Below, piece after piece: positions 51,006 through 54,640 of a DNA stretch of 61,724 nucleotides. The first letter of the stretch is position 1; each line of letters starts with the position of its first letter. The position numbers and the translations under genes were made by a program. Source of the DNA: Halodesulfovibrio sp. MK-HDV (GTDB lineage Bacteria > Desulfobacterota > Desulfovibrionia > Desulfovibrionales > Desulfovibrionaceae); assembly GCF_009914765.1 (NCBI RefSeq), contig NZ_WYDS01000023.1:1-61724 (forward strand), given 5' to 3'. The notes under the pieces were generated by a model. The model saw nothing but the letters and a program-made list of their open reading frames with translations. It searched no databases and was not told the origin of the DNA.

Positions 51006-51100
51006 TGGCGGAGAGGGAGAGATTCGAACTCTCGGTACCAGTTTTGCCAGTACACACGATTTCCAATCGTGCTCCTTCAGCCGGGCTCGGACACCTCTCC
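51006..51100 (-). tRNA. tRNA-Ser (anticodon GGA), copy 1
   Basis: Class II tRNA of 95 bases: acceptor GGAGAGG/CCTCTCC, long variable arm TGTACTGGCAAAACTGGTACC, anticodon loop TTGGAAA, T-arm GAGAG-TTCGAAT-CTCTC, discriminator G and encoded CCA. Identical to copies 2 and 3. Confidence 0.97.
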
Positions 51101-51885: not shown

Positions 51886-51980
51886 TGGCGGAGAGGGAGA
51901 GATTCGAACTCTCGGTACCAGTTTTGCCAGTACACACGATTTCCAATCGTGCTCCTTCAGCCGGGCTCGGACACCTCTCC
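51886..51980 (-). tRNA. tRNA-Ser (anticodon GGA), copy 2
   Basis: Base-for-base identical to copy 1 over all 95 positions. Only 8 bases separate it from the T-run of the ffs terminator, so it has no room for its own promoter unless that lies inside ffs; read-through and processing seem likely. Confidence 0.97.
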
Positions 51981-51988
51981 GCGATGTG

Positions 51989-52024
51989 AAAAAGAAGGCA
52001 CAAACATTTCTGCTTGCGCCTTCT
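51989..52024 (-). terminator. Terminator-like hairpin after ffs
   Basis: Minus strand: AGAAGGCGCAA-GCAGAAATG-TTTGTGCCTTCT then TTTTT. Directly between ffs and tRNA-Ser copy 2. Confidence 0.8.
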
Positions 52025-52109
52025 GGGAGTCGGACACCCACATACAACTGCTACGGCTGCTTTCTTTCGAACCTGACCGAGTTGACAGCGTATATGCCGC
52101 CCGACTCCC
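52024..52109 (-). ncRNA. ffs: Signal recognition particle RNA (4.5S, small bacterial type)
   Basis: The minus strand carries the SRP core GTCAGGTTCGAAAGAAAGC followed by AGCCGTAGCAG, matching E. coli GTCAGGTCCGGAAGGAAGCAGCC with a GAAA in place of the GGAA tetraloop and matching stem changes. The ends GGGAGTCGG and CCGACTCCC pair, and the whole folds to one long hairpin of about 86 bases. It lies 25 bases after tRNA-Ser copy 3 and has no promoter of its own in that gap, so the two are likely co-transcribed. Confidence 0.93.
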
Positions 52110-52134
52110 TACTCAATTAGGGTAAGTTTTGACG

Positions 52135-52229
52135 TGGCGGAGAGGGAGAGATTCGAACTCTCGGTACCAGTTTTGCCAGTACACACGATTTCCAATCGTG
52201 CTCCTTCAGCCGGGCTCGGACACCTCTCC
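52135..52229 (-). tRNA. tRNA-Ser (anticodon GGA), copy 3
   Basis: Identical 95 bases to copies 1 and 2; flanks differ (GACGTG/CACGTC pair outside the acceptor stem). First in the tRNA-ffs-tRNA transcript. Confidence 0.97.
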
Positions 52230-52325: not shown

Positions 52326-52517
52326 TTATTTATTGTCGTGAGTATCGTTTTTGTCTTTCGGGGAGCCTCCCCGATGATGACCGGGGCATCAGCCTCCGCC
52401 ATTACGAATCATTTTCGCGAAAAAAAAGACTACGAAAATGAGTGCTAATATAGAAAAAATATGACTCATTGAAAAACCTCCGAAGCTTCCAAAGCCTCCA
52501 AAAAATGAACATGACAT
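52326..52517 (-). CDS. Predicted small membrane selenoprotein 1 (TGA = Sec43)
   Basis: A 63-residue frame if TGA at 52391-52389 is read as selenocysteine. Start ATG 52517 (MSCSFFGGFGSFGGF) or ATG 52469 (GGAGG in front; 47 residues). Glycine/phenylalanine-rich N-terminus, membrane helix SHIFSILALIFVVFFFAKM, then IRNGGG-U-CPGHHRGG and a charged tail to TAA 52328. Basic residues after the helix place Sec in the cytoplasm. Bases 52359-52373 form hairpin CGGGG-AGGCU-CCCCG, starting 15 nt after the TGA, within the range for a bacterial SECIS. Terminator follows 6 bases after TAA, not after the TGA. Without Sec it would be a 42-residue peptide. Confidence 0.75.
52359..52373 (-). promoter_or_regulatory. 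Putative SECIS hairpin of selenoprotein 1
   Basis: CGGGG-AGGCU-CCCCG on the minus strand; apical loop starts at +21 after the TGA and has G in its second position. Same loop as in the second gene. Confidence 0.7.
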
Positions 52518-52651
52518 TAGGTGTGCTACCTTGTTGTGGGTGATACAACTGTGTTCATGTTATATCTACTGAGATAGTAGAGTCTCTGTTGTTCAGAAGC
52601 TCAACTGGTTTGCGTTAGAAGAACTTTAGAACAGGCGGAGTAGGAAATCAA

Positions 52652-52683
52652 ATAAAAAGGGCGGCATAAATGCCGCCCTTTTA
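52652..52683 (-). terminator. Terminator of small selenoprotein gene 2
   Basis: Minus strand: AAAAGGGCGGCA-TTTA-TGCCGCCCTTTTT; 5 bases past the TAG stop at 52688. Confidence 0.92.
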
Positions 52684-52687
52684 CTAG

Positions 52688-52864
52688 CTATTTACAGTTG
52701 TGCTTTTTCTTGTTTGCAGAACCGCATGAGCATCCTGACGAGGAGCCTCCCCGTCCGTCAAAGCTAATGCCTCAACCCGAGGGTTTATGGCCTTTTGGAA
52801 CAACTTTGATACAGACGAGTGCTATAATTACTAGTCCCACTAGGGGAATTAGGTATCCAAGCAT
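52688..52864 (-). CDS. Predicted small membrane selenoprotein 2 (TGA = Sec31)
   Basis: 58 residues if TGA at 52774-52772 is read as selenocysteine. ATG 52864 has AGGAG 5 bases upstream. Membrane helix MLGYLIPLVGLVIIALVCIKVV, basic linker PKGHKPSG, Sec in PSG-U-GISFDGRGG, then a Ser/Gly/Cys stretch SSSGCSCGSANKKKHNCK ending at TAG 52690. Same plan as gene 1: N-terminal helix, C-terminus cytoplasmic, Gly before Sec, basic tail. A hairpin with the identical AGGCU loop begins 18 nt after the TGA. Two cysteines (CxC) and a terminal Cys could pair with Sec. Terminator lies right after TAG. Confidence 0.78.
52739..52753 (-). promoter_or_regulatory. Putative SECIS hairpin of selenoprotein 2
   Basis: CGGGG-AGGCU-CCUCG on the minus strand, loop starting at +24 after the TGA. 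Compared with gene 1 one stem pair is G-U instead of G-C, and the loop is unchanged. Confidence 0.72.
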
Positions 52865-53743: not shown

Positions 53744-54640
53744 TTAGAGTAGCAGTGTTTGCTCTGTAAGTATAGTGTAGGCCTCAGCGTACTTTTTGCC
53801 TGTTTCGGCAACAACTTCGTCTGGCAGAGCAGGAGCTGGCGGGGTCTTATCCCAGTCCTGTGCGCTGAGCCAGTTACGTAAGTACTGTTTGTCAAAGCTA
53901 GGCTGTCCCTGACCTGGGGTGTAGCTGGACTTAGGCCAGAAGCGGGAAGAGTCTGGAGTGAGAACTTCGTCAATAAGTGTCAGTTCTCCATCAACCATGC
54001 CAAATTCAAATTTGGTATCAGCAATGATGATGCCCTTTTCTTCTGCAAATTCACGGCCTTCAGAGAAAATGCGCAAACTTACATCTGCTACTTTTTCAGC
54101 AAGTTCTTTGCCGATCATTTCTGTAGCACGCTCTACAGAAATGTTTTCGTCGTGGTCGCCCAGTTCTGCTTTGGTGGAAGGGGTAAAGAGCGGGGTCGGA
54201 AATTTTTCAGACTCAAGCATACCTTCCGGCAGTTCATAGCCGCACACAGAACCGGTTTTGTTGTAGTCTTTCCAGCCGGAACCGGAAATGTGACCACGTA
54301 CAATACATTCAATAGGAAGCGGCTTTGCTTTTTTAACAAGCACGGAGCGTCCTTCCAGTTCATCTGCATATTTATGCAGCGGTTCAGGGAAATCTTTTAC
54401 GTCAGATGCGATGAGGTGGTTGGCTATGATGTGCTCGAACTTTTTCATCCAGAACAGGGTGATCTGGTTAAGGATAACACCTTTGTACGGGATAGGTTCT
54501 GCCATGATCACGTCGAATGCTGACATGCGGTCGGTAGTAATAATAAGCAGACTGGATTCATCAATTTCGTAGATATCGCGAACTTTACCGCGAGAAAGAA
54601 GCGGATAATCCGTGATAGTGGTCTTCGTAACGATTTTCAT
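53744..54640 (-). CDS. purC: Phosphoribosylaminoimidazole-succinocarboxamide synthase
   Basis: SAICAR synthase of purine synthesis. 298 residues, the longer type. Signatures: [27 protein letters not shown] at about 18-44, [15 protein letters not shown], and [36 protein letters not shown] 6 bases before ATG 54640. Same strand as hisD (20 bases upstream), likely co-transcribed. Confidence 0.97.

Follow-up and report, generated by a model that had tools for sequence, protein, structure and literature searches.

SELENOK and SELENOS of eukaryotes are the described selenoproteins whose layout comes closest to that of the proteins analyzed here. Each has one N-terminal helix and a short tail with one selenocysteine (Sec), and Cys forms occur in some species. 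The tail is cytosolic and unstructured, and it is often glycine-rich and basic. According to the available text of one source, the Sec of SELENOK and SELENOS is the second or third residue counted back from the C-terminus, and SELENOK works with the palmitoyl transferase DHHC6 (PMC10650576).

Known prokaryotic selenoproteins use UGA and a bSECIS hairpin for decoding, and some contain CU or GU motifs. Small thioredoxin-like or SelW-like selenoproteins carry CxxU or UxxC motifs, with Sec and Cys in the same small protein. A 2026 review, in the parts available, gives a bSECIS model with a loop of 3-9 nt that has a G in its first two positions, a stem of 4-16 bp, a distance of 16-37 nt from the UGA, and a minimum free energy (MFE) of -7.5 kcal/mol or lower; its Table 1 contains 119 prokaryotic selenoprotein families or subfamilies, many with NCBIfam accessions (PMC13188914). 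Going by the table entries, none of the 119 was recognizable to us as a tiny protein that crosses the membrane once and is encoded near fabI. Ribosome profiling with mapping of termination has been applied to SelW in Campylobacter jejuni (PMC11955535). In other sulfate reducers, the deep-Sep study describes three hypothetical selenoproteins without domains (DG, DW, and DF), known here from its text, and its authors state that the method may miss selenoproteins that lack Cys homologues (PMC12013277, also available in part).

The window, that is, the whole stretch of 61,724 nucleotides from Halodesulfovibrio sp. MK-HDV that was analyzed, contains two neighboring tiny genes that we call P1 and P2 (Table 1). 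An initial annotation had proposed that both are membrane selenoproteins, each read through one TGA and ending at TAA or TAG ahead of a terminator. Both minus-strand frames were confirmed, each with a single in-frame TGA and a terminator-like hairpin beyond the stop. We consider the best explanation overall, with a probability of roughly 0.87, to be that P1 and P2 are genuine tiny selenoproteins, P2 being the local member of a set encoded behind fabI and P1 a second gene of the same architecture. From the comparisons below, P2 is almost certainly a selenoprotein and P1 very probably is one.

P1 reads MSCSFFGGFGSFGGFSMSHIF...NGGG-U-CPGHHRGG... up to its TAA, and P2 reads MLGYLIPLVGLVIIALVCIKVVPKGHKPSG-U-GISFDGRGG... 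up to its TAG. In P2, a helix at about residues 5-19 is followed by a basic linker, Sec31, and the tail GISFDGRGGSSSGCSCGSANKKKHNCK. The end and frame first given for P1 stand, and its start at 52517 was probably too early: the better start is the second ATG, at 52469, since GGAGG lies 7 nt upstream of it and the similarity of the most distant relatives begins there. The gene ahead of P2 is fabI; the best 12 NCBIfam matches are all to enoyl-ACP reductase FabI, each below the cut-off of its own model. A search of the 24-nt gap between fabI and P2 found no terminator-like site, and a promoter search for P1 gave nothing beyond chance.

Table 1. Coordinates of P1, P2, and adjoining features in the window.
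Feature	Position	Strand	Basis
purC, upstream neighbor	53744..54640	-	model match
fabI, enoyl-ACP reductase; stop 24 nt before P2	52889..53677	-	NCBIfam matches
Shine-Dalgarno-like AGGAG of P2	52870..52874	-	read from sequence
P2 gene, predicted 58-aa single-pass membrane selenoprotein, Sec31, stop TAG	52688..52864	-	one-TGA orthologues in 10/10 genus genomes
Sec-UGA codon of P2	52772..52774	-	TGA in 10/10 orthologues
bSECIS hairpin of P2: stem of 8 bp closed by a GGC loop, spacing 24 nt from UGA	52737..52755	-	inside 36 nt (12 codons) invariant in 6 close relatives
Intrinsic-terminator-like hairpin after P2, 12 bp	52655..52682	-	computed
Shine-Dalgarno-like GGAGG of P1, 7 nt before conserved start	52477..52481	-	read from sequence
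P1 gene, predicted 47-aa single-pass membrane selenoprotein, Sec27, stop TAA	52326..52469	-	TGA orthologues in 5/10 genus genomes; conserved Met
Sec-UGA codon of P1	52389..52391	-	TGA in 5/5 orthologues
bSECIS hairpin of P1: stem of 7 bp closed by a GGC loop, spacing 21 nt from UGA	52358..52374	-	compensatory change in 3/7 pairs, 5 species
Intrinsic-terminator-like hairpin after P1	52298..52319	-	computed

The likeness to SelK and SelS that had been suggested for P1 and P2 holds for the layout and fails for the position of the Sec, which is residue 31 of 58 in P2 and residue 27 of 47 in P1. Because the Sec is not near the C-terminus, we place both proteins outside SELENOK and SELENOS. They are also shorter, and their SECIS is of the bacterial, in-frame kind. 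By eye, the tail is rich in glycine and proline and positively charged in P1, P2, and the proteins of genus g9, and less so in genus g3. With only 20 (P1) and 27 (P2) residues behind the Sec, there should be no room for a thioredoxin fold, and, in contrast to the thioredoxin-like and SelW-like selenoproteins, no CxxU or UxxC motif is common to the fabI-linked set. In searches of NCBIfam 20.0 with 13 sequences and of Pfam with 12, no model reached its cut-off, the nearest being PGF-CTERM (18.1 bits against a cut-off of 18.8, for the g14 protein). A literature search that subscription papers mostly lay beyond found nothing on tiny bacterial membrane selenoproteins or on fabI-linked ones. The initial annotation was aware of no described bacterial family of this kind, and P1, P2, and their relatives seem, judged by sequence, to be an undescribed selenoprotein family.

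Orthologues of P2 are present in 10/10 genus genomes, in each no more than about 30 nt from fabI by coordinates, and those of P1 in 5/10. The TGA is at the identical column in all 10 P2 orthologues and all five P1 orthologues, counts that come from related species and are not independent. The fate of the sequence past the TGA had been singled out beforehand as a point on which the selenoprotein reading could fall; in relatives it is kept as codons. Among six close relatives, pN/pS behind the TGA of P2 is 0.19, with differences of 26/0/60 by codon position (summed over pairs), and before the UGA it is 0.16, so the frame is not decaying. As a control, frame +1 behind the UGA gave a ratio of 0.79 and frame +2 had no synonymous differences. 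Every gap between the TGA and the stop of P2 is a multiple of three, and a CxC and a further Cys near the C-terminal end are kept in 10/10 orthologues. Over the P2 hairpin, 12 successive codons are without a nucleotide change in six genomes despite a synonymous divergence (pS) of 0.44 before the UGA, which argues for a second constraint at the level of RNA. Other tails are under weaker constraint, with a pN/pS of 0.67 in g9 and a moderate 0.50 in P1.

Profile searches with P2 over 288 genomes and with P1 over 285 genomes of the family, which we take to be the Desulfovibrionaceae, found nothing convincing outside the genus and turned up no Cys counterpart of either protein itself. That family includes Halodesulfovibrio spirochaetisodalis, the nearest named record at 90% protein identity. 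The best weak P2 match outside the genus (L028 in G152) was considered as a Cys form and rejected, being out of frame within an 867-residue open reading frame. A comparison of the P1 and P2 profiles gave a weak alignment with a probability of 24.9%.

The genome has machinery for decoding UGA as Sec, as the selenoprotein reading predicts. The assembly contains a tRNA-Sec (84.6 bits, above the gathering score) and SelB (about 386 bits; 385.6), and three formate dehydrogenase alpha (fdhA) genes above the curated cut-off (G000:C11, C4, and C2; L308-L310) each have one in-frame TGA. In all three, the TGA is followed at 23 nt by a hairpin whose loop is GGC or GGG. These fdhA genes serve as the nearest positive control at hand, since they share a genome with P1 and P2: like P1 and P2, they have one in-frame TGA and a SECIS with a GGC or GGG loop at similar spacing, whereas their products are enzymes of about 1,000 residues, and the decoding signal is the sole shared feature. 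Two further formate dehydrogenase matches, below the cut-off (C44 and C3), also have one TGA each. In the lists of open reading frames around selB and tRNA-Sec, no selA was recognized by eye.

The hairpins of P1 and P2 are of the bSECIS type. The initial annotation had placed them 15 and 18 nt behind the TGAs, which is correct when counted to the 5-bp stem that it described; that stem is part of longer ones, of 7 bp in P1 and 8 bp in P2, around a GGC loop. At -10.7 kcal/mol and a spacing of 21 (P1), and -10.4 kcal/mol and a spacing of 24 (P2), both fit the published model. The stability of a hairpin in one sequence is not decisive, and the evidence is comparative. For single sequences, 12/200 (P2) and 14/200 (P1) shuffles folded equally well, and by our own criteria hairpins of -6 kcal/mol or lower follow 4.9% of TGAs counted across the window (n = 2,224) and 14.5% of those in regions downstream of fabI (n = 1,450). 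Counted by cells of the stem alignments, pairing in five subfamilies is 32/32, 34/35, 49/49 (g9, seven species), 26/30 (g16, five species), and 15/15 (g8, three species), with compensatory pairs in four of the five, g9 and g16 among them. When one partner was slid by 1-3 nt, pairing was lower in every set. The hairpin is part of the lowest-energy fold in 8/10 folded sequences, the exceptions being P1 of G175 and G145. In G143 the lowest-energy hairpin has a loop without G, and another register has one.

Covariation in the P2 stem was assessed in 4/10 sequences (G000, G160, G076, and G171), G143 and G285 having been excluded for gaps. In G171, for example, Gly is replaced by Arg, and a synonymous change in a Ser codon brings the stem pair back. 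In G143 and G285, residues of the hairpin region are replaced or deleted and a hairpin is still there.

An exchange of Sec and Cys was found in genus g3, where the profile of subfamily A4 matched 24/79 genomes. The UGA column has TGA in 13 of these and TGT or TGC in 11. For example, GTPFANHSP-U-APNINHLRWREKSDTPP in a Sec form corresponds to GTPFAHRCP-C-TPYVEHLKWREKSDVPP in a Cys form. A hairpin by our own criteria is present in 13/13 TGA forms and 4/11 Cys forms (Fisher p = 9.5e-4), or, with the spacing limited to 21-25 nt, in 13/13 and 3/11 (p = 2.2e-4); the species are related, and true independence is lower than these p-values imply. In the commonest Cys form, CCTGAAATGGCG and then C or T stand in place of the DNA that yields CCTCCGGTGGAGG in TGA forms, and that hairpin is lost while the protein is nearly unchanged. 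Exchange of Sec and Cys together with loss of the hairpin is a classic selenoprotein signature. Homologues with TGA or Cys in related genomes had been proposed as a check, and they were found with TGA for P1 and P2 and with Cys in this g3 subfamily, which is related to them by place. Where the fabI linkage of g3 Cys forms was looked at, six are behind fabI and one (G259) is on a contig other than that of fabI. One Cys form (L305 in G205) keeps a SECIS-like hairpin of -5.6 kcal/mol at a spacing of 22, and it is possibly a recent conversion from Sec to Cys. Several g3 genomes (L184, L186, L187, L189, L170, and others) have a second tiny, basic-tailed membrane protein without Sec, for example MDTIFMLNLAGIVAFGVAVLGFFYMMGKKKREEDRDRKD, between fabI and the selenoprotein.

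P1 and P2 had been described as two neighboring genes, which they are, and P2 also represents, in this genome, a wider group encoded close to fabI. We searched 135 regions downstream of fabI from members of the family outside the genus (27 loci and 108 regions; six have less than 700 nt, including one with just 50 nt). The filter called for a start with a ribosome site, a hydrophobic stretch at the N-terminus, exactly one in-frame TGA (codon 19-49) with 9 or more residues after it, and a bSECIS-type hairpin, with thresholds set after the first examples were known. It was passed by 27/135 regions, compared with 1/135 reverse complements and 0/135 in each of five dinucleotide shuffles. As bare stems, 15 of these hairpins are at or below the published threshold of -7.5 kcal/mol and the other 12 are weaker. 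A relaxed filter also admits G236 and G234, and of two extra in-family regions (G021 and G026) the former passes, giving 30/137; the other 107 in-family regions, the short ones noted above included, have no Sec-type frame. None of 28 regions downstream of fabI from other families of the phylum passed.

The resulting Sec-type set has 50 proteins from 45 genomes of 10 genera and is beside fabI in nine of them. It includes the 10 genus genomes, G219, and four g3 profile matches (G056, G260, G283, and G262), the linkage to fabI having been looked at for G056. The frame starts about 1-55 nt past the end of the fabI match in g1, g8, g16, g20, and g59, about 160-385 nt past it in g3, g14, and g26, and about 320-490 nt past it in g9. 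In G219 (L111, genus g32), a Sec-type frame with a hairpin of -13.9 kcal/mol lies 1,108 nt behind fabI, which indicates that members need not directly adjoin it. Since P2 has no convincing sequence similarity outside the genus, what ties it to the proteins of other genera is place and architecture. P2 would be the local member of a fast-evolving group of tiny membrane selenoproteins behind fabI in nine genera, and 1.1 kb behind it in a tenth, and P1 a second gene of the same architecture, found in this genus only. Two candidates are left out of these counts: a possible Sec form 567 nt behind the fabI match (L196 in G253, g14; ...WWAKRRACUCGHQGQDDEGACC...), which passes the relaxed filter only, and a possible Cys form directly behind fabI (L155 in G240, g11; MSALLTLVFLVAVVYLLAKAEEKGLFHAAGCPCCREKRRPHRN), which has no clear ribosome site.

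In all 50 Sec forms, simple hydropathy shows one N-terminal helix; the Sec comes 6-18 residues after it, and the tail is short. Each also has at least one Lys or Arg within 15 residues after the helix, which, by the positive-inside rule, suggests that the tail is in the cytoplasm. A Cys outside the helix is present in 48/50 (P1 of G145 and the G056 protein have no tail Cys), and its place varies: CU, UC, U+4, U+6, U+10, U+14, and others, over a range of -11 to +27 relative to the Sec. The layout of helix and Sec is constant and the place of the Cys is not, and so what is conserved appears to be a reactive group held close to the membrane, not a fold.

Comparison of sequences establishes the frames, the conserved UGA, the SECIS hairpins, the tRNA-Sec and SelB genes, the Sec/Cys exchange in one subfamily, and the synteny; translation, topology, the redox role, and any link to FabI are deduced. 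We postulate that the ribosome reads the in-frame UGA as Sec with tRNA-Sec and SelB, directed by the hairpin inside the coding sequence just behind the UGA. The N-terminal helix would anchor the protein and hold the Sec 6-18 residues from the bilayer on a cytoplasmic tail, usually with a Cys, and the Sec and the tail Cys would most likely form a reversible selenenylsulfide. The likeliest role of such a protein is thiol/selenol redox chemistry, with a partner in the membrane or a substrate derived from it as the target, perhaps tied to the synthesis of fatty acids or lipids. We give a role as a membrane redox peptide about even odds.

A rather unlikely alternative, and the one that survives best, is that the Sec and Cys bind a metal, or that the proteins are small subunits of a membrane redox complex, and not free redox peptides. 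The CxC and further Cys of P2, kept in every orthologue, would suit such a site, and hydrogenases and formate dehydrogenases have Sec as a metal ligand (PMC13188914, in its available parts). Against this, the number and place of the Cys differ among subfamilies, a variation not usual where a metal site is fixed, and the common neighbor is fabI, not a redox complex. It is less probable still that the proteins are a switch for selenium status, in which a short and a long form are both made and termination at the UGA without selenium leaves a free membrane helix. The position of the UGA 6-18 residues behind the helix in 50/50 proteins means that termination would leave a complete transmembrane peptide; however, in species with Cys forms the dependence on selenium is gone.

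Two other readings deny that the proteins contain Sec. If the UGA were a true stop, the products would be membrane peptides of 26-30 aa, and the conserved sequence downstream would be an RNA element such as an attenuator, a small RNA, or part of a terminator. In its favor, bacteria commonly make tiny hydrophobic peptides, and the hairpin region shows conservation at the RNA level. We nevertheless find this very improbable, since constraint behind the UGA is codon-like and gaps preserve the frame, the g3 Cys forms read straight through the same column, and the spacing of the hairpin is tied to the UGA, with terminator-like hairpins further downstream. Low-level read-through of UGA occurs in bacteria, but decoding by another tRNA (Trp or near-cognate) as an ordinary residue, or pseudogene decay of the frames, has almost nothing left to recommend it, given tRNA-Sec and SelB, hairpins of the bSECIS type, replacement by Cys and not Trp in 11/24 g3 relatives, and low pN/pS on both sides of the P2 UGA.

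With fabI as the common neighbor, a link to lipid or fatty-acyl metabolism is plausible and unproven, and fabI may be just a stable genomic place. A functional link to FabI is doubtful, and slightly more so given the distance of the G219 frame from fabI. By its place, the set brings selenium close to a gene of fatty-acid synthesis. The pairing of SELENOK with DHHC6 offers a parallel to the fabI-linked peptides that is suggestive only. We speculate, and only tentatively, that the Desulfovibrionaceae evolved membrane-tethered selenol peptides like SELENOK and SELENOS independently of eukaryotes, and that these act together with FabI in fatty-acyl or membrane-lipid chemistry on the cytoplasmic side of the membrane. 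If so, such partners of FabI would have been hidden because most are shorter than 65 residues, are interrupted by UGA, and are so variable that genomic place alone reveals the members.

Ordinary gene finding would probably overlook both proteins. Bacterial genomics probably has a blind spot for tiny selenoproteins, and a whole set appears to lie in it. In layout, the set would be a minimal bacterial counterpart of SELENOK and SELENOS. It also suggests a recipe for finding more: short frames with a helix, a UGA, and a hairpin, near a conserved gene.

On the 3' side of P1 are a tRNA-Ser gene and then the small SRP RNA. Three tRNA-Ser(GGA) genes lie within 1.3 kb on the minus strand (51006-51100, 51886-51980, and 52135-52229), and the small SRP RNA (52018-52113, minus) is flanked by two of them. 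Inspection by eye shows these tRNA-Ser and SRP RNA sequences downstream in the other genomes of the genus too, except that the contig of G175 ends after the tRNA-Ser.
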